Shown here one piece after another: positions 16,692-63,660 of a DNA stretch of 64,000 nucleotides. The notes below the pieces were generated by a model. The model saw nothing but the letters and a program-made list of their open reading frames with translations. It searched no databases and was not told the DNA's origin. The position numbers and the translations under genes were made by a program. Within the stretch, counting starts at the first letter, position 1, and every line of letters starts with the position of its first letter. Source of the DNA: Coptis chinensis (Eukaryota > Streptophyta > Magnoliopsida > Ranunculales > Ranunculaceae); NCBI GenBank assembly GCA_015680905.1, contig CM027379.1, forward strand, positions 99,065,001-99,129,000, written 5' to 3'.

Positions 16692-17384
16692 GCAGAGAGA
16701 GAAAAGGTGTTTGTTTGATTGTGATTATATATATGTTTGATTGATTAGTATCTGCGGTTGAGAGGAGTGTTACTGTTAACTAACCGTCTTTGGAAGTTGC
16801 GTATGGTGATGAAAAAATGTTGCGGGGGTCCCACGTCAGTGTAATGTGTGATTAGAGGAGAAATGCATCAAGCATGGCTTTTTTGAGCGTTCCAAGTTTG
16901 GACCAAATATATGGGTGCCTCGAGGAGGCTTGAATGGATGCGTCTAAATTTGTTGCAACCTATTGTTTTTCATGTATGCAACATTTGTTACGTGAATTAT
17001 ATATATATACTAGCTTTCGAACCCGTCCTACGAACAGGTGTCATTATATTAAATTATTCTAAAAAATATTAGCAACTATGTATATCTATGAGATATGAAA
17101 ATTATATTAATCACTCATTCAAATTTATAGCACCACTCTCTATAAAAAGAAAACATCAAACCTTGATAAAATCCATCGACATAATTTTCTTGTAAGGTTT
17201 AATAATATAAATTTTATTGAAATTTTATGAAAATGCCCAATGTGGCGAAAATGATATTGAAACTATTTGAATAGCAAGATATTCCCAATCATAATAAAAG
17301 AATTATAATAAACACTACGTAAAATGCAAAACTATACTTGTCGAGACATTATATTCTCCCTACATATAATACAACTATGTTTCA

Positions 17385-18805
17385 GGGTTAGTTCAATGCA
17401 TTTGCATCAAGTTTCTGATTTTACGTTAATTATTCTTTGAGGCTAGTTTAATGTAGTTGCATCTAGTTTTCGATTTCACATTAATTATTCTTTGAGGTTA
17501 ATTCAATGTAGTTGTATCAAGTTTTTGATTTTCCGTTAATTATTTTTTGAGGTTAGTTAAGTGCAGTTGCACCAAGTTTACGATTTCCCGTTAGTTATTC
17601 ATTAAGGTTAATTCAGTGCAGTTGCATCTAGTTTTCAATGTTTCATTAATTACTCATTGAGATTAGTTTATTACATTTGCATCCAGATTTCAATTTTCCG
17701 TTAATTACTCTTTGAGGTTAGTTTAATACATCTGCATCCAGTTTCTGATTTCCCGTTAATTATTTTTTGAGGTTAGTTAAATGCATTTGCATCTAGCTTC
17801 CAATTTTCAATTATTTATGCTTTGAGGGTAGTTCAATGCAGTTACATCCGGTTTTCAATTTCCAATTAACTATTATTTTTAGGTTATTTCAATGCATTTG
17901 CATCCAGTTTTCGATTTTCCATTAAATATTCTTCAAGGATATTGCATCCAATTTCTGATTTCCTGGCATGTTAGTTAATCTATGATTTTAGTTTAATACA
18001 GTTGCATCTAGTTTACGATTTTCGGTTAATTATTCTTTGAGGTTAGTTCAATGCAGTTGCATATAATTTTTTTATTTTCCGTTAATTGTTCTTTTAGGTT
18101 AGTTCAATGCATTTGCAGCAAGTTTTCAATTTCCCATTAATTATTTATTGAAGTTAGTTCAGTGCAGTTGTATCCATTCTTCGATGTTTTGTTAATTAGT
18201 ATTTGAAATTAGTTCATTGCATTTGCATCAAGTTTCCGATTTGTCATTAATAACTCTTTGAGGTTAGTTCAATACATCTGCAACTAGTTTATTATTTATG
18301 ATTATTTATGCTTCGAGGTTAGTTCGATGCAATTTCATCTGGTTTCTTATTTCCCCTTAACTATTATTTGAGGTTATTTCAATGCATTTACATATAGTTT
18401 CTGATTTTCCGCCAATTATTCTATGAGGTTAGTTCAATGCAGTTGTATTTAGTTTTTGATTTCATGTTAATTATTTTTTGAGGTTAGTTCAATGCATTTG
18501 TATCCAGTTTCCGATTCCCTGTTAATTATTATTTGAGGTTTGTTTGATGCATTTGCATACCGTTTCAGATTTCCCGTTAAATATTTTTCAAATATTTGCA
18601 TCCGATTTCTAATTTCCCATTAGTTATTCTCTGACATTAGTTTAATGCAGTTGCATCTAGTTTCCCCTTTATAGTTAATTACTTTTTTAGTTTAGTTTAT
18701 TGTATTTTGATAAAATTTCTGATTTCCTATTAATTACTCATTGAGCTCAGTTTAATGTATTTGAATCCAGTTATTGATTTCCTTTTAATTATCCAATGTG
18801 GTGTG
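17385..18805. repeat. 55-bp minisatellite array, copy 1
   Basis: About 25 degenerate tandem copies of a 55-bp unit. Each unit has the order GGTTAGTTCAATGCA, TTTGCATCCAGTTT, GATTTCCCGTTAATTATT and TTTGAGG. Units differ by point changes and a few short losses. A unique-looking leader of about 360 bp (17030-17384) precedes it. Not CRISPR: no spacers, and the repeats are diverged and directly adjacent. Confidence 0.9.
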
Positions 18806-18984
18806 TAATACTAACTTTCTACTGATCCATCTGTAATGTCATTGCAAACATAACATAAAAATAAATTATGTTTGATTTACTATATGGGAATATGGGATCA
18901 TCAAAGATTATCTAATTCCCGATTTTTTGTTAATTATTCTTTAAATTATACCTGACTCACTATGTGGGATCTTCAAAGATTATC

Positions 18985-20229
18985 TACAAACAGGTCCTGT
19001 CATATTATTTATTCTGAAAAACATATGCAACTATATATACAAATATTATATTGATCCCTCATCCAAATTTTTATAACATGAAAACCCCACGTACTCTCCA
19101 TTAAAAAAAAAAAATCACCATTGGTAAAACCCTTCAACTTCATTTTGTTGTTTAATAATAGAAGTTTGATTGAAGTTTTGTGAGATTGTCTAATAAGCTA
19201 CTTGAATAGCAAGGCGTTCATAACCATACGAAAAAAGATAAGAAAAACACAATTTTAAATGCAAAACTATAATTATCGATACATTTCCACAACATATAAC
19301 ACAACTATATTTTGATATTAGTTAAATGCATTTGCATCCAGTTTCTGATTTTCTATTATTTATTTTTTGAGGTTAGTTTAATGCAATTGCATTTAGTTTC
19401 TGATTTCTTGTTAATTATTATTTGCAGTTAGTTCAATGCATTCCAATTTTCAATTTTTTTGTTAATTATTCTTCGAAGTCAGTTCAATGCATTTGCATCC
19501 AGTTTCTGATTTCCCGTTAATTATTATTTGAGATTAGTTTAATACATTTGCATCAAGTTTCCGATTTCTCATTTATTATTCGATAAGGTTGCATTTGCAT
19601 TTAGTTTCTGCTTTCCCGTTAATTATTGTTTGAGGTTAGTTCAACGAATTTGCATCTAATTTCCGATTTTCCGTTAATTATTTCTTGAGGTTAGTTCAAT
19701 GCATTTGCATCTAATTTATTTTTTGAGATTAGTTCAGTGTAGTACTGGAGTTGCATATGGTTTTTTATTTATAGTTAATTATTTTTTAAGATTAGTTCTA
19801 CGCTTGCATTTGCATCGTGTTTCTAATTTATAGTTAATTTTTTTAGGTTAGTTCAATACAGTTGCATCTAGTTTCTGATTTCCCGTTAATTTAATCTCTA
19901 AGGGTTAGTTCAATGCATTTGCATCCAATTTCCAATTTCCCGACAATTATTTTTTGATGTCAGTTCAATGTATTTGCATCTAAGTTTTGATTTCACGTTA
20001 ATTATTTTATTTTATTTTTCGATAACCAAACATTAATTATTCTTTGAGGGTAGTTTAATACAGTTATATCCATATTCCAACTATCCATTTATTACTTTTT
20101 AAGATTAGTTTAATACTTGCATGTGCATCTAATTTTTTATTTTCCGTTAAATATTATTTGAGGTTAATTCGATGTATTTGCATCTAGTTTTTTGTTTCCA
20201 GTTAATTGTTCTTTGACGTTAGTTTCATG
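18985..20229. repeat. Second leader plus 55-bp minisatellite array, copy 2
   Basis: 18990-19315 is a diverged copy of the leader at 17030-17384 (shared order: ACAGGT, GCAACTAT, ATATTGATCC/ATTAATCACT, TTGAATAGCAAG, AATGCAAAACTATA, ATACAACTAT). It is followed by about 16 more copies of the same 55-bp unit, up to the hAT element at 20230. Leader and array were thus duplicated together as a higher-order unit. The 180 bp between the arrays (18806-18984) belong to neither. Confidence 0.8.
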
Positions 20230-20606
20230 CAAGGCCCAAAATATCGCCGATATATCGTCGATATATATTATTTTTTGGTACACCAACATCGATATATCCG
20301 ATATATATCCACCGAATATTGAATCATTTTTTTCCCGATATATATTGGAATTTCCAATATAAAACTTTATATCGCCGATATAAACGATATATGTGATATT
20401 TATGATATATATCGTTTGACTTTTTGACCATTTTTTAATATAAATATCCGATATTTTTTATATTTTACAATATTTTTTTACCAATATTTTTGATATTTCC
20501 GATATTTTAGATAGTTTGGACTAATCACAAAAAAATAGATATATCCGATATATATCAGTTTTTGGGTATACCGAAATATTAACCAAATTTGATATTTTGG
20601 GCCTTG
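20230..20606. mobile_element. hAT miniature element with 8-bp target duplication
   Basis: Perfect 16-bp terminal inverted repeats (CAAGGCCCAAAATATC) enclose 377 bp of very AT-rich sequence built of GATATATCCGATATAT-like motifs. Direct repeats GTTTCATG lie at 20222-20229 and 20607-20614. The 8-bp duplication and ends fitting the hAT consensus YARNG identify the superfamily. It sits in the last 55-bp unit of array copy 2, so it arrived after the array formed. Confidence 0.92.
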
Positions 20607-20614
20607 GTTTCATG

Positions 20615-22050
20615 TAGTATTATATATATTTTAAAATATTTGTCATTATTGGTTTGCTGTTATTTTTTTTTTTCTATTATATATTTTGTGATGTTATTTT
20701 TTGTATAATTTAATTTTCCACATGTAATTTGTTTTGGTTGTGTATATAATTTATTTAATCCCAACTTTCACTTTAACTAAATCTATAGTTATATAATTTA
20801 TTTAAGCCAACGCCCACTTTAACTAAATCTCGTTATTCCGCTAAAATTGGAAATTATAAAATTCAGAAATTTAATTGGAATATGTCGTAATTATTGTGGT
20901 CGGAATTGTGGTTTTTGAAATTCTTAACTATAACTAAATGTCTATATCCCATAGTGGATGACACATCAAATTGATCAAACTTTATTTTTTAGGCCCATAT
21001 ATATAGTGCATACAATACAATTTTATTTGTTTTGGGTGTACACTGTTACTTATTTGATGATTCGTTGATTTTTTTCTTTTTTTCCAATCACATATGTGGT
21101 TAACAAATGTATAAAGTAAATATTCAAGCAATTCAATTCATTTTTACTTTTGTTTTTTCATAGTTTCATTGTCATTTTCCAGAAAAAAAAAAAAAAAAAC
21201 TTTGTTATGTTAAATTTCACCTGAGATTAGTGTAGAAACTATTATTTGTAGCGTAAAGGTTTTAGAAAAATCGTTTTTGGTTGAAACTATTGTTTTTAGC
21301 AATTAGTTTTCTGTCATAATTTTTTCCCGTAATTAGTTATATTGTTTAGGAAAAGTTTGAGACTCTGTGAAACTTTAGATGAGATTGTTTCTTTATTTAT
21401 ATCATACTTTTTTGTAATTAGTAATAGAGTTTAGAAAAAACTGGAATCTCGATCAGTGTGAGTACTTTAAAAAATAGATTTAGATTTTTTTTTTTTTTTT
21501 TCATAATTAGTGTTAGAGTTTACAAAAAAATTGGAAACTCTATGAAGCCTTGAAAAATAGAGCCAAGAGGGTATATCTATAATATATATCTAAGGATTAA
21601 TATTAAAGCTCCTACATGGGTTTTTTCGAACTCTATTAAAACTCAACGTCATCTCATATTTAAACGAGAATTTATCTCCTATTTTAAAGCTCTCACAAGG
21701 GTATTTTTCGAGCTCTATTAAAATTCCACGTCATCTCCTATTAAAACGGGATTTTTTGTCCTATTTGAAAAACTGAAATTTCCATCCTATTAAAACAAAT
21801 TCTAACACTTCTAATTAAAGCGGGAATCATTCTCCTATTAAAATGGAGAATAAAAATTTAACATATCTAATTAAAACGGAAATTATTCTCCTATTAAAAC
21901 AGGATATTTCTCCCAATTGAAAAAACGGGTTTTTAAAACTTAATTAAAACTTAATTTAAAACAATTTGTTATAAAATTAAAATTGGTTAGCGACTATAAC
22001 GGTAATCCCAATTTTATAAAAAAAAAATCTAAAATGTTTTCAAAAGAGCC
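20615..22050. other. AT-rich interior tail of the Helitron-like block
   Basis: No ORF or known domain. Two local repeats are visible. A unit with TAATTAGTNNTAGAGTTTA recurs at about 21415-21545. Between 21600 and 21920 a unit of about 80 bp, with TCTATTAAAA, CGTCATCTC and CTCCTATT, appears twice and then decays into shorter CTCCTATTAAAA copies. Confidence 0.5.
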
Positions 22051-22085
22051 GGTGCATATGCACGGGCCTACAAACTAGTATATAT

Positions 22086-23444: not shown

Positions 23445-23600
23445 TCTAATCTACATGCAAACACCACTATATATGCATTATATGCATTGCATGTGTATGC
23501 CAACATGTAAACATCATTATGTATGTGTACATATGTGCATGACATACATGCAAACACTACTATGCATGTGTATACCACACATGCACACACCATTATAAGA
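23445..23600. repeat. CATGCA-type minisatellite, left block
   Basis: Degenerate units with ACATGCAAACACNACTA and TGCATGTGTATACC, the same family as the block at 25020-25370. Confidence 0.65.
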
Positions 23601-23799
23601 AATGAAGCTCAGCCCCTTGGTTCTAACTCAGTTGAGTATAAACTCTTTCCCATCGGCCCATACCACATAACCTCCATATTATTTAGGTCTCGTTAAATAG
23701 CCTCACTATTTTCCTAAAAAGAGATAAAATTTGGTCTGTTTTTATTTCCCAACCATTTTATCTTATTTTATTTTTTACCCTTTTGGGATTAAAAATTTT

Positions 23800-24180
23800 C
23801 CGACTATATGTAAATTTATTTTTACATAGTTATATATATGTAAAACTATATTTGCATAGTCATTGGAGCTATACAAACTTAAATTTATATAGTAACTTTT
23901 GGAATTGAAAATTTTTCGACACCTGACAAAATATATATAAATATATTTTTACATAGTCATATATATATGTAAAACTATATTTACATAGTCATTGGAGCTA
24001 TGAAAACTTAAATTTACATAGTAATTTTGTATATTTAAATTTTTTCGACACCTGACAGAATATATGTAAATGTATTTTTATATAGTCATATATATATATA
24101 ACTATATTTACATATATAGTTACTGGAGCTATGGAAACTTACATTTACATAGTAACTTAATCTATGAAAATTTAAATTTA
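23800..24180. repeat. Tandem array of about 120-bp AT-rich units
   Basis: Three successive copies (about 23800, 23920 and 24048 onward) share CGACACCTGACA, TTTACATAGTCATATATA, TCATTGGAGCTAT and CATAGTAACTT. A decayed fourth part is visible near 24290-24420. Confidence 0.75.
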
Positions 24181-25019
24181 GAAGAGTGTGTTTACAAGTC
24201 TACAAACAAAATAAAAAACTATGCATAATAAATTGTTCTCACATAGCATTTCTTTGAAATTGATCAATCTAACATCTGACATAACGAACTCATATAATTT
24301 TATACGACCTGTTAAAATATATTTTTACACAGTAGATTATTACAACTGATATCCGACAGAACTAATCTATGTAAATTTAAATTTACACAGTAACTTGATC
24401 TGTGAAAAATTAAATTTTCATAGAGAAAACAAATCAATCATAACTTATGCAAAATTATTTGAAATGAACAACAGCGCAAAAAGATTTCATATTCGAATTG
24501 AAAAAAACTTGACTTTCATATTCAAAATATTCAAATAAATTTCATATTTGAATTGAAAAAGTAGACAATTCTCTGATCCGGTTTTGAGTGGAAGAAACAA
24601 AATTTTCAAATCTTGATATTGTTTCTCAACTTTGATTTGCTTTAGTGGAAGAACAACAAATTTCAAAAGAAATTGATTGAGATAAAGAAAATAATAATTT
24701 CATATTTGAAAAAAACGAAATAATGAGAGAAAGTGAGAAAATAATAAGAAAGAGAGTAGTGGTATAATTTTTAATTAATTTGTTGTTGTAATTTTCAAAT
24801 TTGTAAAGAAAAATGAAGTTTTCAATGAGAGTTGTAAAACAAGATAGAGAGAGCTAGAGGAGAAGAAGAAGAGTTTGTTTTATGCCATTAAAGTAGTTTT
24901 GGGGGCATTTTCGTCAATGTTGTGGGGTTTTAAAAAACAGAGAGTTTTAGTGGGTTGGTCCGGTGAGAGGGAGGGAGGTTTTATGGACCAAAAATTAGAT
25001 CAGAGATATTTTTCCCAAA

Positions 25020-25372
25020 ACCTGCACAACATTATGCGTGTGTGTAACAAACATTCAAACACTACTACCACACATGCAAACACTACTACCACATATGCAC
25101 ACACCATTATGTATGTGCGCAACAAACATGCAAACACTACTACCACACATGCACACACCAGTATGCATGTGCTCAAACAAACATGCAAACACCACTATGC
25201 ATGTGTGCAACAAACATATAGATACTACTACAACATTGCACACACCATTATGCATGTGTGCAACAAACATGTAGACGCTAGTACCACACATGCACACGCC
25301 ACTATGCATGTGTCCAACAAACATGTGTCAACAAACATGCAAACACCACTATGCATGTGTACAACATGAAAT
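25020..25372. repeat. CATGCA-type minisatellite, right block
   Basis: About six units of 54-60 bp with AACAAACATGCAAACAC, TACTACCACACATGCACAC and CATTATGCATGTGTGC. Open frames on both strands here are by-products of repeats without stops and are not genes. Confidence 0.85.
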
Positions 25373-26656: not shown

Positions 26657-28326
26657 ATGGAGATCCCTGTAATTGATCTCGAGGGTCTTAATGGTGATTT
26701 AAGCAATAAGACAATGGACCTTCTTCACCAAGCTTGTGAGAAGTGGGGTTTCTTTAAGGTTCGAACAATGAAAAATCTTTCTTACTTCTCAAGTTCCCTT
26801 TCTTTCTGAACTATCTTTTTAAGGTACTAATAGTTTATTACAGGTTTCGAACCATGGGATTAACGTCGAACTGATGGAGAAAGTGAAAAGATTAGTGAAC
26901 ATGCATTATGAAGAGTACATGAAGGAAAGCTTCTATGGTTCAGATATTGTCAAGGGCTTGCAAAGTAAAGAAGCCATTAGGGAAAAAGATTGGGAAAGCA
27001 GCTTCTTCATCTGGCATCGACCAATCTCTAATCTCCACGAGTTCACCAATTTCTCAGAAGACCTGTGGTGAGTTCATAAAAAAGATTGCAGTGTTCTATT
27101 TCTGAATTAGTGGAAAACCTTAGTTTGTATATAATTCAGCAGAAAAACAAGGTACGCAAACTAGAAGATTGAAGTTCAGTATGAGGACAGCCTCTACTAC
27201 CTGCTTTGTAACTTCACAACACTGATCCTGTGACCCTAAATATCTGACTAACAGACTTCCATTGGTTCTTGCCAATCTTTCCTTAAAAAAACTGATCATA
27301 TGACTACATGAGTATCAAAAAGATCCAATAATTGAAGTAATTCTTGAGAAACACATCCTTGAAAAAGGTTCTCGTGCGTCTCACTAAACTATGCAGTTCC
27401 CTCATCTTGACAAGCATAGCCACCTAGCACAATCAGTACAGATCCCTTCAGGCCGGTTCAGGACTTCGATTTAGATAGGAAGTTCAATCCAGGAGACATT
27501 ATTCCTACTGAATGAGCATGTTAGACAGTTAGTATAATCTGTTCATAAGATTACCGCAATCATTTACACTGACAGAGTATTCTTTTGTCGTCAGATTTAA
27601 GGTATAACTCCAGTAAAGGAGTAAAGGGTTTTAGTTTTTTTTCCCAAGATACCTAAAATTACTAATACCCTGCATCTATCCTTTGCGTAAAAAATGCATG
27701 CAAGAACTTCTAATCGATTAAAGCCTTGCAGCAAAGCAATGGACGAGTACATTAGCCAGGTATACAAGTTAGCAGAGAAACTTTCAGAGCTCATGTGCGA
27801 GAATCTGGGGTTGGAGAAGGACTATATAAAGAAGGCATTCTCAGGACCTAGAGGCCCTTCTGTGGGAACAAAGGTGGCAAAGTACCCTCGATGCCCTCAA
27901 CCTGAGCTTGTGAAAGGACTTCGAGCCCACACTGATGCGGGTGGGATCATCCTTCTACTCCAGGATGACCAAGTCCCAGGTCTTGAATTTTTCAAGGATG
28001 GAAAATGGGTGGAGATACCACCCTCAACAAATAACACCATCTTCATAAACACAGGTGATCAAGTTGAGATACTGACTAATGGCAGGTATAAGAGCGTGTT
28101 GCATCGTGTAATGGCTGATGAGAATGGAAGCAGGCTCTCGATTGCTACATTTTACAACCCAGTTGGAGATGCAATTATTTCTCCAGCTCCTGAACTCCTA
28201 TATCCTCATAGCTTAAGCTTCCAGGACTACCTCAAACTTTATGCCACAACCAAATTCACAGATAAAAGCACTAGGTTTAAATCACTGAAGAAGATTGCTG
28301 GCGGACAGGCTAAACTACTTGTCTGA
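26657..28326 (+). CDS. ACO1: 1-aminocyclopropane-1-carboxylate oxidase (ACC oxidase)
   Basis: Fe(II)- and ascorbate-dependent oxidase that turns ACC into ethylene, the last step of ethylene synthesis. Exons 26657-26758, 26844-27067 and 27732-28326 join in phase (102+224+595 nt) to 306 aa, near the usual 310-320. The N-terminal DIOX_N domain starts [11 protein letters not shown] and has CEKWGFF and NHGI. The 2OG-Fe(II) domain carries HTDAGG (two metal ligands), [33 protein letters not shown] (third His) and the RLS motif that binds carboxylate/bicarbonate. Exon 3 covers what many ACO genes split in two, so one intron seems absent. The residue made across the second splice junction is Cys. The ORF looks intact. 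It is convergent with the FANCE-like gene. The paralogue number is uncertain. Confidence 0.95.
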
Positions 28327-29271: not shown

Positions 29272-30880
29272 TCACAAGCTACACAGTTTTGATAATATTG
29301 ATTTGGTCATGAAAGTGTTGGTGCGCTCAATGGACTCAGTCAACAAGAGTTTATGAGACCTCAATTGCGCCTCACATTTAGTAACTAGAGATAACAGAAA
29401 GTTACCAAACTTTAATGATTTTGAGTACTCGTAATCTAGTTGCTGAACGACGGAGACAAGACGATCAACTGTATCCTGAGTTAAATAAACATTATGATTC
29501 AAGATATTCTGAAACAGAGTAAACAGTGATTCCGTCCATACCAACTCATCCGTCATCAACCACTGGTGGCGAGGAATGTAAACCAGTCTCCTTCTTTCAT
29601 GTTCTTTAGATACCAGCTTCTGGCAGAAGGAAGAAACATGAGGTGGATGCAAGCATTCTCTGATTATCCTTGTGACTACTTCGCATATGGGGTTGTTGAT
29701 TCCATCCTTACAAAGCAACAAAGGAAACAAAAGTGCATCGACAGAAGCTTTCTGATGGAGCTTGCAGAACTCAATCGTAGCTGACATCAGCACACGAGAT
29801 GCCGGTCCACTAAGAACCAACATTTTTGGTAGTATGACCGCACATAAAACCTGGCATTGCCATAGAATGTCTTCTCCTTCCCCACTTGTTAAATGAGATA
29901 ACAGAATTGAAGCAGTCTCATCATCCGCTTCCCAAGGTTCAATAAGACCCAAAACAACAAACGGATAACCACCTCCTCCTTTTCCATCGGGGAAACATAG
30001 TCGGCGAATCTCATCTGCTAAGCCTATAGTTTTAGATGTAGACTCAAAACTTACAACTTCGGTTTTTAAACAGGTAGCTTTCCTTTGAACTTCATCATCA
30101 ATAGGGACATTTTCAATATAAACACTTGAACTTTTATCCTCCATTTCTTTCCCTTCTCCTTCAACTTCCATCAAAGAATTCTCATCTACTTTCTCATCAA
30201 CAAAACTACTACTCAACTTACTTGCGCGCAATTCATCGCAAATTATAGGTAACCATGGAAGTACTGAACTAGGGGCATTATTCAAACTCTTTAACCAACT
30301 AGGTAAAGACTCAAACTCTTCTTCAACTTGATCAACATCACAGTCTTCCAAACTCATACCAGAAACCCAATCATAACTTGAGTCAGACACTACATCAAGC
30401 AAGTTACAAGCAGCTTTCTTCACCCAAAAATCAAGTTCTTGATTCTCTTTCAATATATTATTAGCAAGTGAACATAATTCCTTTTTACAAAACCTCCTTC
30501 TCTCTACTCTTAAAAACGATAGTATCCTCATTTGTACTGCATTGGGTAAAGTCTGAATCCACATAACACTAACAATGAAACAAACACAAGAAGTTTAATA
30601 CATTTTACGTAAATGATGAAAATGAGAAAAATAAGAAGTTGGGGTTTGTTTAAAATTACCTTTTGGAGTGATGGGCTGGTAATGAAGTTGAAGTTGGAGT
30701 TGAAGAAGAGTTGATAATGGCAACATCTATGGGTTTTGAGAGGAGAGAAAGAAATAAACATGTTGATGTGTTGGTGGTGGTTGTTGAGGAGTTGAACGGG
30801 TGTTGAAACCAAAAAGAAGCTTCGGATTCTGGTGTTGGGGAATTGAGGAAGATGTTGAAGAGTGGAACCCAAGCTTCCAT
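29272..30880 (-). CDS. FANCE: FANCE-like protein (Fanconi anaemia group E homologue)
   Basis: Likely subunit of the Fanconi core complex that links the ubiquitin ligase to FANCD2 in interstrand-crosslink repair; in plants the FANCC-E-F module has also been linked to limiting meiotic crossovers. Exons 30880-30660 and 30568-29272 (intron GT-AG) join to 1518 nt, 505 aa. The start MEAWVPLFNIFLNSPTPE and the junction region VMWIQTLPNAVQMRILSFL agree with my memory of plant FANCE-annotated proteins. From about residue 258 (DEIRRLCFP...) to the end is a run of amphipathic helices as in the FANCE C-terminal repeat domain, finishing SLKFGNFLLSLVTK and TNTFMTKSILSKL. The acidic linker near residues 95-250 is low in conservation. 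The ORF looks intact. The family call rests on recalled similarity, not a search. Confidence 0.82.
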
Positions 30881-46278: not shown

Positions 46279-49200
46279 TGTCATGTCCTACATGGACCAT
46301 GGTGGTAGCCTACCGAGACTAACAACAAGACTGATTCCATCTCAGCAGCAGGGCAAATGAGTAACTTAGTAAGATAGAAGAATGTAGGAAGGACACGTGT
46401 AAGTAGAAAATCTCTCGGATCTGATGATAAAGGGAGAGGAGTTTTATGGAAGAAAGGAAGAAAAATAGTTAAGAACTCGGGCTCTAGTTTCGGTGAAACA
46501 GAGATTAGGCTCTGCATTCTTTTTTTTTGAATCAGAGATCATTTTGTTTATTTTCATTTTCAGTTTACTATTCATGAACTAGGTTATGAACTAGGTTGTG
46601 AACTCCCTTTACTATTCACAAACTCACTTTCTTGGTCTAGTTTATAACAATTGGTATTCAGAGCCTATGTTTCTGGTGAAGATATGACACTAGGTGAAGT
46701 GGAAAAACTAGCTAAAGGAACACAACACCAATTTAATGAAATGCGCTCAAGGGTTAACGACTCAAGTCAACGACAGATTAATCAAAGAGATCCAAGCAAG
46801 AGAAGTAGCAGAAAGGAAAATGGAGGCAAGACTTGAACTTTTAGATAAGAAGTTAGACTCTAGATTTGACCAGCTGTTGAAAATAATGAATGACAAAGGG
46901 AAGAACACCACCGTAGCGGCTGAGTTGCCTTCTGGGTCTGGAACTCCTCTAGAAACCACCATTGAAGCTGAACAATCGACAACTTACTCAAGACAAAATA
47001 TTCCAAATGACTGGAATGACCATGGTAATCTTCTTAAAACCCCTAAGTTAGAATTTCCACGTTTTGACAGCACTAATCCTCGTGTGTGGGCTAGGAAGTG
47101 TAATCAGTTTTTTCACTTGCATCCCATGGATGATAAAAAAAAGATTAGTATAGGGTCACTATACTTTGAAGGAAGAGCAGATTCATGGTTCCTGACTTAC
47201 CAAGATGGGAAGGAATTAGTAGATTGGAATGCTTTAGTTGAAGTCATTTGTGGTCGATTCGAATTGGTAGGCCAAGAGAACTATGTAGGCAGTTTTAATA
47301 AACTGATTCAAGTGGGTACGGTTGATGAATACTTTGAGCATTTTGAAGAACTTCAAGCTCTTATGGTGAGTAAAAATAAACAGTTCAGTGAAGAGTACTC
47401 TGTCCTTAGTTTTTTGAGTGGGTTGAAGGAGGAATTGAAAGCTTCGGTTCAAATGTTTAAGCCAACAACACTAAGTAGTGCACTATATTTGGCCAGAATG
47501 CAAGAAAAAGCTTTGGAAGCTTAAGTTAAGAGGGCAGCAAAACCCATACAGAGAAATTTTACCAGCACCACTTCATACTTCTATACTCCACCTTTCCAAA
47601 ACAAACTACCACAAACGTCTATTCCCATCCCAAAGGTCCCTTTCAACACAACCAAAATCAATACCAACCCACCCAATACCATCACTACCAACATCAACCT
47701 ACCACCCATCAAAAGACTCACGCCTGCCCAAATGAAACTCAGAAGAGACAAATGCCTCTGTTATAACTTTGATGAAATCTATAAGCCTGACCACAAGTGT
47801 ACGAGCCAACATTTATACATGTTGGTAGGAATAGAAGAGGATACTGACACAGAAGAAGTTGAACAAACAGAGGAGCAATTGCTGCAACAAGTGGAGACTG
47901 ACATGGAAATCTCTCTTCATGCCTTAACTGGCAATGTGGGCTAGAATACCATTCGTATCCCAGGATTTATCAAAGAAGAAACCTATTACTGTGTTGATTG
48001 ACTCAGGAAGCACACATAGTTTTTTCGATTCTGAGGTGGCTAAACAAGCAGGCTGTAAACTCAATCTCACTGCACAAATGTTAGTCACCGTAGCTAATGG
48101 GGAGAAGACCATCAGTAAAGCCATAAGCCATTTGCAACAACTTAAAATGGCAAATGCAAGGTCATGCCTCTGAGGATAACATCAGAATTTTACCCTTGGG
48201 GGGATGTGATATGGTACTGGGTGGAGATTGGTTAAAACAATGTGGGGATGTACTCATTAATCTTCAAAAACTTCAGTTGACTTTTAAGAAAGATGGCAAG
48301 AAGATAGTACTAAAAGGTGGACAGGAAACTGCTTCTCTTAAGATGATCACTGCCAAGGCTTTATCAAAGTTTCTAAGCAAGAATACTCATGCTCTAGTGG
48401 GCCAAATCTTCTCTATCACAGTTAGTGAACTGAAACCAGAGGTTCCAATTGAGGTGACTTCTCTACTTTAAGAATTCAGGGACGTTTTTCAAGAACCTAC
48501 TAGCCTTCCACCGTCAAGAACGTTAGACCATCATATCCCACTTAAACCCAATGCAGAACCTACAAACCACGTCCCTACAAACATCCATACATCCAAAAAT
48601 CTATCCTAGAAACTCTAATGAAGCAGATGTTGCAATCCGGACTCATTCAACCTAGCCACAGTCCTTTTGCATCTCCAGTGTTATTAGTTAAGAAGAAAGA
48701 TGGTACATGGCGTTTCTGTGTTGATCACAGAAAGTTCAATACTATGACAGTGAAAGACAAATTCCCAATGCCAGTCATAGATGAATTACTAGATGAGTTG
48801 CATGGAGCTTGCATATTCTCCAAGATAGACTTATGGTCAGGTTACCATCAGATTTTGGTCCACCCAGAAGATGTTTACAAGACTGCCTTCAGTACTCACT
48901 AAGGACATTACGAATTTAAGGTAATGCCTTTTGGACTCACTAATGCCCCAACCACTTTTCAAGCATTGATGAATGATATTTTCAGTCCATATCTAAGAAA
49001 GCATGTATTAGTTTTCTTTGATGACATTTTAGTCTACAACACCAACTTGGAGGAACACTTACTGCATTTGAGGCAAATTCTGACTACTCTTAGGGAACAT
49101 ACCCTATATGCCAAGGCTTCGAAGTGTACTTTTGCCCAGTCTCAATTAGAGTATCTGGGTCATTTAATCACACCTAATGGAGTAGGTGCTGACCCTACCA

Positions 49201-51677
49201 AGATTGAAGCCATGGTCAATTGGCCCAAGCCTACAACACTCAAAGCCTTGAGAGGATTTTTAGGTTTAATAGGGTACTACAAAAGATATGTTCAAGGATA
49301 TGGGAATATAAGTAGACCTCTCACCGAGATGTTAAAGAAAAATAATTTTAAGTGGTTACCAATGGCGAAAGAGGCATTTGAGGAATTGAAACATGCAATG
49401 ACCTCTACACTTGTATTGGCACTTCTGGATTTTCAACAACCTTTCATTGTGGAGACTGATGCATGTGCTCAAGGCATAGGGGCTGTTCTAATGCAAGGTG
49501 GTCGACCTATTACTTTTTTCAGCAAAGCACTTGGTCCAAAGGCACTAGGGTTTTCTACCTATGAAAAAGAGCTACTAGCCATTGTGATGGCAGTAAACAG
49601 ATGGCGCTCTTATCTTACAGGACACCACTTTATCATTCACACAGACCAGCAGAGTATTAAGTTTTTCATGGAACAAAGAATCACTACCTTACTACAACAG
49701 AGATGGCTCACAAAGTTACTCGTTTTTTATTATGAGATTAGGTATAAGAAAGGTAAAGATAACACTGCAGTTGATGCCCTGTCCAAAATTTCAGAAGACC
49801 AAGGAGAATGCCGCCTCATTACTGAAATACAATTCAACCTCTATGGATGCAAGAAGTCTCACTCAGTTATGATCAAGACCCCACTCTGCAACATATCATT
49901 TCCCAACTCCTGATATCTCCTACTAGCCTTCAACATTATACTTATGAAGCAGGCATCCTCCATTACAAAGGGAAACTTTTTATTGGCAATAACAATGCCC
50001 TAAGATCAAAGTTGTTATCTACCATTCATTCTTCTTCCATGGGTAGTCACTCTGGAATTCAAGCCGCTTACCTTCGGGCAAAATCTTATTTCTATTGGCC
50101 GGGTTTAAAGAAGGAGGTACTCCAATTGGTAACTAACTGTGATATTTGTCAGAGGTGCAAAGGTGAGCACAAGTTTCCCGCAGGACTTCTACAACCACTT
50201 CCAATTCCATACCAGGCATGGCAACATATTAGCATGGATTTTATTGATGGACTACCCAAATCAGAAGGCAAGGAAGTAATTTTAGTGGTCGTCGACAGAT
50301 TTACAAAGTACAGCCACTTCTTGGCCATCAGCCACCCTTATACTGCTTCTTCTGTTGCTAAAGTCTTCATGGATAACATCTACAAGCTACATGACCTCCC
50401 TCAATCCATTGTCTCAGATAGAGATAAGGTTTTCATCAGCGCTTTCTAGCAAGGGAGCACTAGGGACAGAGGTACATTTAAGCACTACCTATCACCCTCA
50501 AACAGATGGCCAAACTGAGCGCACCAATGCATGTTTAGAGACATATTTGAGGTGCATGACAGGGCATTCTCCTTCACAGTGGGTCAAATGGCTTCCACTT
50601 GCAGAATGGTGGTTCAATACCAACTACTACACAAGTCTCAAAATGCCCCCATTCACTGCTCTCTATGGCTACTCTCCACCACACCTTACCATTCCCACAA
50701 CTGTCAACACTTCCATTGGGGTAGTTGAAAAGTATCTTAAGCAGCGACAACACATGGTAGGAGTGATTAAAGAAGATCTGTTAAAAGCTCAAGAGCGCAT
50801 GAAGTTCTATGCTAACAAGAAAAGAATAGAGAGGTCCTTCCAAGTTGGAGATTGGGTCTACTTGAAGCTACAACCTTATAGACAAACATCCATCTCCATT
50901 CACAAGAATCTTAAGCTTTCAGCCAAGTTTTATGGCCCCTTTCAGGTGACAACAAGGATAGGGGCAGTAGCTTACAAGCTATACCTCCCACCACACTCCA
51001 AAATCCACCAAGTTTTCCATGTATCTCAGCTCAAGCAGAAGTTAGGTTCCACTGCAGTACCAGTTCCTCAGCTTCCCCTTGTCGATTAGGCTGGAAAATT
51101 CTTAATGGAACTTATAACCATTCTTTCTCGCAAAATCATTCCCCGAAACAACCAAGCTGTAGCTCAAACCCTCATTCAATGGTCTCATACTAATTCCAGA
51201 GGATGCCACTTTGGAGGATTGGGCAAACATCGCGGCACATTACCCTCACTTCAATCCTTGAGGACAAGGATTCTTAAAGAAGTCGGCATTGTCATGTCCT
51301 ACATGGACCATGGTCGTAGCCTACAAAGACTAACAACAAGACTGATTCCATCTCAGCAACAGGGCAAATGAGTAACTCAGTAAGATAGAAGAATATAGAA
51401 GGGACACGTGTAAGTAGAAAATCTCTCGGATCTGATAATAAAGGGAGAGGAGTTTTATGGAAGAAAGGAAGAAAATAGTTAAAAACTAAGGCTCTAGTTT
51501 CGGTGAAGCAGAGATTAGGCTCTGCATTCTTTTTTTGAATCAGAGATCGTTTTGTTTATTTTCATTTTTAGTTTACTATTCATGAACTAGGTTGTGAACT
51601 CTCTTTACTATTCATGAACTAGGTTGTGAACTCCCTTTACTATTCACAAACTTGCTTTCTTGGTCTAGTTTATAACA
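46279..51677 (+). mobile_element. Chromovirus-type Ty3 LTR retrotransposon (fossil), inner layer
   Basis: 5' LTR 46279-46649 (371 bp) and 3' LTR 51290-51677 (388 bp) begin TGTCATGTCC and end TATAACA. The 5-bp duplication GAGGG lies at 46274-46278 and 51678-51682. A tRNA-Met-type primer site follows the 5' LTR (TGGTATTCAGAGC). Parts: gag 46.7-47.6 kb, protease near 47.95-48.15 kb (DSGSTHSFF), reverse transcriptase and RNase H 48.6-49.8 kb (VLVFFDDILVY), integrase 49.85-50.7 kb (HHCC-type and [10 protein letters not shown]), and a chromodomain-like end near 51.1-51.25 kb. Length, short LTRs and chromodomain suggest the Reina or Galadriel group. The copy is broken in roughly half a dozen places. 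LTRs differ at about 4-5% of sites, hence perhaps 1-3 million years old under usual plant rates. Confidence 0.9.
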
Positions 51678-57200: not shown

Positions 57201-59292
57201 GTTAGCCCAAAGGCTGGAGAACCTGTAGGAATCTATCTTGCTTATTAACCGACTCTGCCTGCCCGGTCTGAGTCATTTTGTTGATGATTCTGAAGAAAGG
57301 CCGGTTCATTCTATTAGCAAGACACTAACTGCAGTAGAAAGTCGTTACTCCAAAATTGAGAAAGTCGTGTTGGCCTTAGTACATGGAGCTTAGCGATTGA
57401 AACCATATTTTCAGGGGAGAACAGTGAAGGTATATACGGAGTATCCTCTACGAAAGACCCTCGGCAAACAGGGGGAATCAAATAGGTTGATTGAATGGTC
57501 AAGTTACCTCAGCACATATGATATTGTTTATGAGCCAATGACTGTAGAAAAGGGGCATGCTCTAGCCTCTCTTATGGCAGATTTTCCTGTGGATGACATC
57601 CAACTGAGTCCAAAATTAGCAAAAGTTGAACAACTTCCTGATCATTCTGTTCAATTCCCTGCACAAACTGAGGAGTTCTCACCCAGTACATCTGATTCTG
57701 GGTCGAGCGCATAATTAACAATAATCAAAATCTCTGGACCGTCTTCACCGATGGTTCAAAAAATGCATCCGGGTATGGTCTGGGTTGTGTACTTATTAGC
57801 CCTGAAGGACAGAAAATTGAAAGATCAGTCAGACTAGGTTTTCCTACCTCTAATAATGAAGCTGAATATAAGGCTGTTATCTATGGTATGAACGCCGCAC
57901 CTAAGCTGGGAGCGAAGAACATTCAAATGCTAACAGATTCTTGCTTGATGGCTAATCAATTTGGTGGTACTTTTCAAGCAAAAGATGAAAGGATGGCGAC
58001 ATATTTGGAAATCATACACAAATTGGCTATGCAATTTGACAAAATCTCTATCAATCAAAGGCCAAGGAATGAAATCAGGCACGCTGATGCAAGAGAAATC
58101 CAAATTGATTTCCAACAAGAGCCGAGCATCAATCTACAACCAATGAGACTTCATGAGGCATATGTTGTTAACAAGTCTGTGTTGTTAACACTCAGTGAAG
58201 AAAAAGAGAACAGGTGGATCATGCATCTTCAGAATCTAAAGATCCAATTGATGCTGAGGATCACCAAACTTTGGCATCCTTACACAAACAACTTAAAAGA
58301 AACCAATATCCCATCGTCAATGATTCAGATCAAGGAATGAACCCTTGTAACCTTGGCAGTATTGGGGGCGACCGTGAAGATACTGGGGTGACATCATCCC
58401 CACTGAAAATGAAAAGTCTGAATCTGAAGAGGAAACTCTTGATGATTTAGAGATAATGGACTTAGAAATCTTGGCACAGGAAAAATCTGACTGGAGGATG
58501 CCCTTCATCGAGTATCTGAACTCAGGGAATCTCCCCACAGAGAAAGCTTTATCTCAGAAGGCTAAGCGAGAGGTATGGAAATTCGCAGTATTGTTCACTA
58601 AAGAAAGAATCGCTCGACTTTACAAAAGGCCAATGGGGTTTGGCCCACAGTTACGATGTCTTACCCCAGAGCAAGGCGAAATGATACATAAAGAAATTCA
58701 TGCAGGTATTTGTGGGAATCACTCGGGAGGTCGTAGTCTTGCCCACAAGGCTTTAACGAAGGGTTATTAGTGGCCATACATGCAAAAAGATAAAAAACGA
58801 ATCACTCAAATTTGTGTGCTGTGCCAGAAACATGCTAAAGTTGGAAAACTACCAGCCACAGAATTGCACCCAATTCTCATGATTTGAATTGGCCTTTCTC
58901 AAAATGGGGGCTCGACATCGTAGGACCTTTGCCTAGGGCACCTAGAAGAGTTTGTTTTTTGTTGGTGGCTACCGACTACTTTACAAACTGGGTCGAAGCC
59001 ACAACTTTGGCTTCAATAACTACTGCAGATGTAAAGCAATTTCTGTGGCGTGATATTATTTGCAGGTTCGAAGTACCTTCAGAGTTAGTATTAGATAACG
59101 GTTCCCATTTTGGCTATACAGAGATGCAACAATTCTGTGGGTCTATGAGCATAAAGCACAACTTTTTTGCTCCTTACCATCTTGAAGCAAATGGCCAAGC
59201 TGAGGCTACTAATATGGTAATCTTAGATACCCTTAAGAAGAGGCTTACTGAAGCTAAAGGCAACTGGGTTCGTCAGCTACCTGTTGTCCTAT

Positions 59293-59640
59293 CACTACAA
59301 AAAAAATAGGTTTTACCCCACGATTCAAAACCGTAGAAAAAGGGGAAAAAAAACCTTCTTTTTCCACGGTTTTGGACTGTCGCAGGACCATGGCCTTTTT
59401 GTGCATCGGAAATGGTCTAGCCACAGTCATGACCGTGGATAAAGCCTACCAATAGCGACAGTCTTTGCGTCAGCTATTGCCGTCGGTATGGCTACGGCAT
59501 AAACCGTTGGATAATTCATGGCAAAATCTCACTTTTCCCCACGGTGTTGGTCCGTGGGAAAAGGGTAGTTTTTCCTACGGTATTGGTCCGTGGGATCTGC
59601 TATTTTTGCGACGGCTAGATACCGTGGCAGAGTTATTTTA
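59293..59640 (+). mobile_element. CACTA (En/Spm) element, left terminal and subterminal region
   Basis: Starts CACTACAAAAAAAATAGG, a CACTA terminal inverted repeat, directly at the break in the Tat integrase. It continues with subterminal repeats of both orientations, CCACGG...TTGGTCCGTGGGA and CGACGG...CCGTGG, repeated at least six times to about 59625. This is the usual transposase-binding subterminal layout. No matching right TIR (reading ...GTAGTG) was found within the window, so the element is either truncated or longer than it seems. No transposase is visible. Confidence 0.85.
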
Positions 59641-61985: not shown

Positions 61986-62467
61986 AGACTTTTCATTTTA
62001 CAGAGAACTATACACATGGCCATGAAGACTTGATTTTGGGTAGATAGGGAACATGTTGTGTGTGTGCGTGTGCCGGGGGGGGGTTGTTGTTTAATAAATT
62101 ACCACTTTGTTTTTAGGGTAGGGCGGTCGTGAATGTCGTTCAGGTTGTTTTAGAAGAAAGTACAAGGAGCTGCTCCTTTAAATTGAACCCACATCTCTAA
62201 AATGCGGTATTGTATTCTAAGATAATTCTACGAGACTTTTGTTGCTCCCTATTCTCTCTAATCAACTTTCCTAAAAGTTACACTCACACGAAGAAAATTG
62301 TGAAGACAAGCAGTAAAAAGAGAAGGTTCTATTACAAGTCCTCAAAGTCCACAACATATGACTGTGATCTGCCTTCTTTTTCACACCTACTTACATTCTT
62401 CCACTCCAAAAAGCAAGAAACCAAAATCCCAATCCTCTTTTCTCTTTCTATTCACAAGACAAAAAAA

Positions 62468-62965
62468 ATGGCACTTAGCAACAACATAACATCTTGTCTC
62501 AACTTCATAGCAATTCTTTGTTCAATCCCCATAATTGTAGCGGGTATATGGTTAGCTTCAAAACCCGACAATGAATGCATCCATTTATTTCGTTGGCCCG
62601 TCGTTATCCTCGGGATACTCATTCTCCTCGTCGCGCTTGCCGGGTTCGTGGGCGCTTTCTGGAACCGTCAAGGCTTACTTGCTTTCCATCTTTTTTGTAT
62701 GGCTGTTCTCATAGTTCTGCTTCTCATCTTGTTAATATTGTCTTTTGTTGTGACCCGACCCGATGGGAGTTATGTGGTTCCGGGTCGTGGGTATAAGGAG
62801 TATAGATTGGATGGGTTTTCGAGTTGGCTTAGAACCCATGTCACTAATTCTGGAAACTGGGGGAAGATCAGAACTTGTCTTGCTGAGTCAGATGTGTGCA
62901 GTAAGCTTGGTCAGAATTACGCTTCTGCTGATCAATTTTTCTCTGGACATATGTCTCCTCTGCAG
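62468..62965 (+). CDS. TET2: Tetraspanin, TET2-like, first exon (gene continues beyond window)
   Basis: Plasma-membrane tetraspanin, a scaffold of membrane microdomains; close relatives act in development and cell signalling. The exon encodes 166 residues in phase 0 and ends at CTGCAG|GTAAGT. Transmembrane segments lie near residues 9-29, 44-66 and 70-95, with SKPDNEC in the small loop. The large extracellular loop begins RPDGSYVVPGRGYKEYRLDG, followed by WLRTHV, NWGKIRTCLAES and VCSKL, all characteristic of the TET1/TET2 branch. The plant GCCK/RP motif, remaining cysteines and fourth transmembrane segment should be in exon 2, which is not found before 64000. The frame is open upstream to 62210, but the family start MALSNN at 62468 is chosen. 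Which paralogue it is remains open. Confidence 0.95.
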
Positions 62966-63660
62966 GTAAGTACACCTGATAAACGCTCCCTTTTTTATCG
63001 GGTTTGTTTACGAGTACTCTTGTTTTACTCTTTCAAGTTTTTTAATCTTCGGAATGCCAATAACCTCAGTAGAAACAACTTTTTGTCTTGTGATTCCGAC
63101 AAAGTGAATGATGGTTCATATCACAATGAACTGTGGGTTGCAAACTTGCAATTCACAAAGTAGGCTGCCTGCTGTTAACTAGTAACAGTAGTAAGGTGGC
63201 ATACTGACATGTGCTCAACGGCTCAACCAATTTGGAAGAGTTGTACTGTGCCACACGGTCACTGGGCTAACTGCTCAGTTGACACGTCGTATTATTATCA
63301 GAATTATTTATATTTCCTTTGCTTGAAAAATGTTCCTAGTGCAGTAGTGCTGGACTGCTGGTCCAAAAGTCCATCTTTGTGAACTTCCTGAGATTTTAGG
63401 TGGGGTAGCATCCGTGCAACTCTTTATATATGGAAAATATGGATAGTAAACTCTAGATTCTTCTTATAAAAAACGAAGAAATTTAAATTCTTAAATTTTA
63501 TCATACAAAAAAGATTAGCTAATTGCTGCTTAGGCCTTTAGTTCGATATATTTTTTTTTCCGATAATAACCCATCACATTTATCTTAAGCAACTGACAAA
63601 GGATTTATAGAGTCTAGAGACCAACAAGGAGGTGACCCAATAGTGGTATATTTCAATGCC
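62966..63660 (+). other. TET2-like intron 1 (partial)
   Basis: Follows the donor at 62966. No acceptor followed by tetraspanin coding sequence was seen. No other gene is recognised. Confidence 0.6.

Follow-up and report, generated by a model that had tools for sequence, protein, structure and literature searches.

A block at positions 17010–22078 of a 64,000-nt stretch of the Coptis chinensis genome (contig CM027379.1, here C3, positions 99,065,001 to 99,129,000; hereafter the window) carries a Helitron-type 3′ end at both of its borders. We found that the block very probably consists of two non-autonomous Helitrons of different families, which we call L (17010–21596, minus strand) and R (21597–22078, plus strand), which point in opposite directions and touch at their 5′ ends, whichever of the two arrived first. 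It is because they sit 5′ end to 5′ end that both outer borders are 3′ ends. The initial annotation of this DNA, made from the letters alone, had proposed either a head-to-head fusion of two non-autonomous Helitrons or a derivative using 3′-type ends on both sides. The first proposal was borne out, in that there are two families and each has a TC 5′ end of its own, while the second was not, as the borders belong to two families and, in the copies examined, show no fixed spacing; nor, given that the borders belong to two families, was there support for a single, so far unnamed family. All coordinates below are window positions unless a contig is named, and genome-wide statements refer to the assembly of 936 Mb in 116 contigs.

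The border signatures that the initial annotation described could be read directly at 17010 and 22078. At the left border, CTAG occupies 17010–17013, and outward on the minus strand the sequence reads GTTC GTA GGAC, GGGTTCGAAAG, CTAG and T; at the right border, CTAG occupies 22075–22078, and outward on the plus strand the sequence reads GTGC ATAT GCAC, GGGCCTACAAA, CTAG and T. The distance from hairpin to CTAG is thus 11 nt at both borders, with T next after CTAG at both, although longer stems (ACCCGT/ACGGGT on the left, GCCGGTGC/GCACGGGC on the right) put this spacing at 7 nt. In the window copy, the 3′ hairpin of L lies at 17021–17039 (minus strand) in the form ACCTGT/ACGGGT, with one G-T pair, and is followed by TCGAAAG and CTAG, while that of R lies at 22048–22067 (plus strand) and is followed by CTACAAA and CTAG. 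The hairpin at the 3′ end of a Helitron is regarded as a terminator. A function in transposition is described for it in the accessible part of one study (PMC4778049). The folding energy of the window copies was unremarkable for the left hairpin (z = −0.15) and modest for the right (z = −2.11), the folded stretches being short by the outermost two (left) and one (right) bases; it is through conservation across copies, and not through folding energy, that the hairpins exceed chance. CTAG followed by T was found in 19 of 22 aligned rows of the left end, which thus has the CTRR form with an upstream hairpin, and the perfect 6-bp ACCCGT/ACGGGT stem in 17; for the right end, the corresponding counts were 39 of 48 for CTAGT and 28 of 48 for the inner GTGC/GCAC stem.

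On the minus strand, L forms a non-autonomous Helitron that is complete, as it has its own 5′ end, TCCTTAGATATATATTATAG at 21596, in addition to the conserved CTAG/T 3′ end. A genome search with the left border gave 2801 candidate places, the best 40 of which were compared; the 39 besides the window were 91–94% identical to it. Among 20 relatives fetched, at about 6 kb each, 15 showed an L-type 5′ end on the expected side, 3.7–4.6 kb from the left border and mostly at 4.0–4.3 kb. Read on the plus strand, the L 5′ end is CTAA(A/G)GA in 11 of these 15, the same as in the window, where the element starts TCCTTAG; variant ends that keep GA occur at loci L025, L033 and L039, and locus L031 shows neither CTAA(A/G)GA nor GA, such that plus-strand GA (TC on the strand of the element) is present in 14 of 15 readable relatives. 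Elements of the L family are mostly 4.0–4.3 kb long, run from TC to CTAG and contain two 55-bp minisatellite blocks. The flanks past the 5′ end differ between relatives, except for L035 and L036, which have both flanks in common and look like one insertion duplicated later with its surroundings. The L 5′ terminal pattern had 1021 exact matches in the genome (reversed control, 0), and the number of L elements is smaller than this because many of the listed matches are paired, with roughly 100–400 bases between the two. At L040 (1–6501, with matches to window 20640–21500), the 5′ part of L is represented by pieces repeated several times in tandem.

R is a short non-autonomous Helitron whose relatives begin TC(TATATC)nTTAATATTAAAGCTCC and end CTAG. 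Its start in the window contains an 82-bp tandem duplication (21603–21770, plus strand). The right border had 1771 candidate places in the genome, of which the best 40 were compared and 20 regions fetched. The relatives are mostly about 0.35–0.47 kb long, with TC or TC(TATATC)n ahead of TTAATATTAAAGCTCC and a 3′ end made of the hairpin, CTACAAA/G, CTAG and T. Copies running from TC and the leader through TTAATATTAAAG to CTAG occur without L. The 5′ TC is present in relatives, for example at L046, whereas R in the window lacks it and starts at 21597 with TTAATATTAAAG.

The two elements meet at 21596/21597, where ..CTAAGGA of L (plus strand) stands directly against TTAATATTAAAG of R, whose usual TC is gone. 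This internal 5′/5′ junction had been missed in the initial annotation, and its exact pattern occurs once in the genome. When the best 40 left-border places were compared with the best 40 right-border places, the two borders lay less than 20 kb apart in the window only; the many copies with the same two borders that the initial annotation would have taken as support were thus not seen among these places beyond the window itself. It had also held that a single element becomes untenable if the borders never occur together at a fixed distance elsewhere, and in the copies examined they never did. Among 19 L 5′-end places, the left border lay 3.9–4.5 kb from the L 5′ end at four, including the window, and 11.7 kb from it at one. 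None of the 20 fetched L copies had R past its 5′ end in the arrangement of the window; at L026, R fragments on the opposite strand lie about 0.6 kb past L, and at L033 R occurs both within L and behind the L 3′ end. Two other interpretations of the sequence were tried and rejected. A start of R at the TC at 21576, which would give a 21-bp overlap with the L 5′ end, conflicts with the L relatives, which keep this stretch to the identical last base in unlike flanks, and with the R relatives, which have a different leader. A locus on contig C4 (L020/L067) was considered as a second block, and there 66 bp of L-like 5′ end precede R, with no more match to L in 6 kb.

A nested pair on contig C5 provided the empty-site comparison that the initial annotation had called for. 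At C5:80437684–80445066, a 7383-bp element of the L type, most aligned parts of which are about 80% like L, has CTAG on its far side and adjoins a three-unit R array on the other. The left flank ends ...TATATCTATATCTTAATA (in shorter form ...TATATCTTAATA) and the right flank begins TTAAAGCTCC; when joined, they give the native R 5′ end. L therefore inserted between an A and a T of the R leader, and no base was duplicated or lost. The converse was found at L046, where a three-unit R array sits in the 5′ end of an L between TCCTTAGATATATA and TTATAGATATACCC, and where the joined flanks restore native L; this is the one locus at which R was seen inserted between A and T without duplication. At L062, the 3′ end of R adjoins the 5′ terminal stretch of L (one side read), and at L041 the 3′ end of one L adjoins the 5′ stretch of another. 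Taken together, these four loci led us to conclude that the 5′ ends of both L and R are sites for other Helitrons.

As to how the window block came about, the comparison of flanks and leaders leads us to lean toward R having arrived first. R would have landed in a TA-rich site, and L would then have inserted the opposite way at an A-T step located at, or inside, the short 5′ leader of R, which would have left the body of R on the far side of the L 5′ end. On either side of the block, the flanks ...GTGAATTATATATATATA and TATATATATATATATATATGACTG make up one TA tract. The joined flanks of L in the window, TATATATATA/TTAATATTAAAG, differ from the native R leader (TATATC TTAATATT) by a single base, C to A, and this change itself makes an A-T step. 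Each element was presumably mobilized by the RepHel protein of autonomous Helitrons of the same genome, which would have acted separately on the strand of L and on that of R, in each case from the TC of the element to its CTAG. RepHel-coding elements are indeed present: Helitron_like_N (PF14214) gave 157 genome matches from 150 scored of 2000 candidates (best E 3.1e-58), many of them without stops, and 0 of 14 control genomes had a match. Under the rolling-circle model, the pair could not move as a unit because both 5′ ends lie inside it.

The reverse order, also compatible with two separate Helitrons, is a real possibility that we nevertheless consider the less probable one. Here L would have entered the TA tract first, R would have followed at an A-T step formed by the terminal A of L and a host T, and R would later have lost its TC. 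R does enter the L 5′ end elsewhere (inside it at L046, with its 3′ end adjoining it at L062), the L 5′ end in the window is complete, and in the window copy of L the divergence from the family majority exceeds the average of the relatives (0.079 and 0.069 in two parts of the element, compared with means of 0.030 and 0.044 for other copies). This order, however, requires a 2-bp loss at the R end where the other requires one substitution, and in the C5 analogue it was L that entered R. A different kind of explanation, that the composite was formed before a single insertion, through joined Helitron intermediates or a strand switch in rolling-circle replication, would account for the lack of any base between the two families and for the missing terminal TC of R, but ordinary nested insertion between A and T fully explains C5 and L046, and we judge a pre-formed composite to be very unlikely. 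Less probable still, to the point of being scarcely credible, is a single transposable unit with 3′-type ends on both sides that moves whole. Its appeal is that the outer flanks join to one TA tract with a T after each end, as expected from one insertion, and that a second head-to-head case of L and R exists on C5. That case, though, has another junction and another length (7.4 kb, to which a three-unit R array is added) and is a nested insertion between A and T; the borders were not found together among the 40 by 40 places or in the 20 fetched L copies; and the window junction pattern is unique. An element with two 3′ ends was accordingly rejected for the copies examined, on the lack of border co-occurrence, the unique junction and the presence of an internal 5′/5′ junction.

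Several observations weigh against the interpretation of the block as two independently inserted Helitrons. A looser head-to-head pattern was found at two places (the window and C5:80445054), and its reversed control at 1 + 1; being equal to the control, this count proves nothing alone, and it is the wider alignments that make the C5 case. The co-occurrence comparison covered the best 40 places per border, of 2801 and 1771 candidates. The window locus itself yielded no empty site: its two flanks led to 2 and 39 other places, with 3 of 3 and 40 of 92 candidates scored, and no flank match reached the borders. The T expected on the 5′ side of an A/T site was present in just 8 of 14 readable L copies. 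R in the window is without its TC, which requires a small change, either a substitution before the arrival of L or a 2-bp loss. Lastly, R differs from its family majority by 0.085 (duplicated first 82 bp excluded), compared with a mean of 0.091 for other copies, and the divergences of L and R do not separate the order of insertion.

The interior of the block is, as the initial annotation stated, mostly a duplicated minisatellite, which lies within L. Its 55-bp unit forms two blocks, at 17386–18585 (21.9 copies by Tandem Repeats Finder, TRF) and 19311–20006 (13 copies). Between them, at 18985–19310 (minus strand), lies a diverged internal copy of the L 3′ end region, and a second copy of this 3′-end module was found in 18 of 20 relatives, being partial in one of these. 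In the window copy, which was the one compared, this relic is still like the true end, with the hairpin arm and CTAG degenerate. L likely arose through bypass of an older 3′ end into the second repeat block. A hAT-type miniature inverted-repeat transposable element (MITE), which the initial annotation had not picked up, is nested in L at 20230–20606; it has the terminal inverted repeat CAAGGCCCAAAATATC, an 8-bp target duplication (GTTTCATG at 20222–20229 and 20607–20614) and an empty site in relatives, and thereby resembles hAT MITEs, which share the 8-bp duplication and CA-type terminal inverted repeats. The MITE-free site was continuous in 17 of 20 L relatives, and the remaining three, L038, L040 and L041, had no match at this position. 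The insert accounts for most of the additional length of L in the window.

Elsewhere in the window, further minisatellites, of the ACATGCAAACACCACTATGCATGTG type and with a 129-bp repeat, occur at 23491–25366, just past the block. Coding pieces at 46712–51089 and 57696–59309 belong to a Ty3-type retrotransposon (gag, reverse transcriptase/RNase H and integrase C-terminal domain) and a second element (RNase H and integrase core). Open frames at 27691–28326, 29272–30594 and 62201–63163 have matches in families of host genes, namely a 2OG-Fe(II) oxygenase, a FANCE-like protein (weakly, at 25.8 bits) and a tetraspanin, respectively.

L and the window pair can be set beside described systems as far as the available portions of the publications allow. 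DHH_Mothra of rice (PMC4683698) resembles L in being a high-copy non-autonomous element with TC...hairpin-CTAG structure, low GC content and two tandem-repeat blocks. It is set apart by its description, which gives a consensus of 1993 bp and repeats of its own, compared with the 4.0–4.3 kb typical of L, its 55-bp unit and its blocks split by a relic 3′ end. In maize, two dissimilar Helitrons abut directly, as do those in the window, and the authors concluded that they represent independent consecutive insertions; one of their models places an insertion at an AT composed of a host A and the 5′ T of the older Helitron, and G/T junctions are discussed (PMC2267711). The accessible text calls the maize pair head-to-head in the abstract and head-to-tail in the body. 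Going by that text, what distinguishes the window pair is its head-to-head arrangement, a nested analogue with an empty site, and the membership of R in a family with hundreds of head-to-tail junctions.

These junctions belong to arrays. The R-family loci L045–L064 and L018–L024 hold head-to-tail arrays with exact CTAG/TC junctions, and RCTAG followed directly by TCTTAATATTAAARCTC had 289 exact matches in the genome (149 + 140), with 0 in the control, a pattern that picks up, in addition, R placed behind an L 3′ end, as at L033. A head-to-head pattern of R with at most 30 bases between was found nowhere in the genome (control, 0), this pattern being the stricter one in requiring two exact 15-mers. 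Across 27 loci and the window, all 22 R neighbours that abut, with a gap of no more than 12 bases, pointed in the same direction, as did all five non-abutting pairs; two of these five include a spurious 5-bp piece, one of 54 units, which was excluded from the identity means by a length rule. Internal units mostly start directly at TCTTAATATT, TCTTAATA comes straight after 19 of 48 R 3′ ends, and the first unit of an array often has a longer leader.

Head-to-tail Helitrons with perfect CTAG/TC junctions are known from the bat Myotis lucifugus (Pritham and Feschotte, as cited in PMC2267711), and the R arrays are alike in these junctions. Going by that citation, the bat elements were proposed to be tandem copies, whereas R units from one array resemble each other no more than units from different loci do: mean identity was 0.850 within arrays (41 pairs) and 0.850 between loci (1337 pairs). 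The best match of a unit was an array mate in 3 of 40 cases, with 1.6 expected, and two 3′-end subtypes were mixed in 6 of 14 multi-unit loci. Rolling-circle concatemers are not favoured as the source of the arrays, since units are no more alike within them and subtypes are mixed; the identity test is one that a star-like burst could blur, and its loci were chosen because they resemble the window.

Insertions made one after another at the A-T step in the leader would produce the geometry of the R arrays, and just this geometry; they leave the constant direction unexplained because A-T is symmetrical. We tentatively put forward, as an idea that we hold to be somewhat improbable, that the R leader, (TCTATA)n before TTAATATTAAAG, might be a preferred landing pad, where Helitrons, chiefly R, enter A-T steps nearly always in one direction. 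If so, arrays would grow on their 5′ side through successive single insertions of unlike copies, and the head-to-head block in the window would be a rare opposite-direction product of the same targeting. Centromeric Helitron arrays and Helitrons near Helitrons in maize have been subjects of earlier work. Among the best-ranked hits in the literature that we searched, mainly non-subscription, no title or abstract dealt with one-directional arrays of unlike Helitrons.

With regard to the block itself, the result removes a suspected new type of element and shows how a nested Helitron pair can mimic one element; the block is ordinary in kind, and we consider the R arrays to be the part worth following. 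The hundreds of abutting Helitrons in this genome make the two models discussed for the maize pair in the available text of that study, tandem rolling-circle copies and consecutive insertions (PMC2267711), testable in number, and they also bear on why abutting Helitrons point one way.

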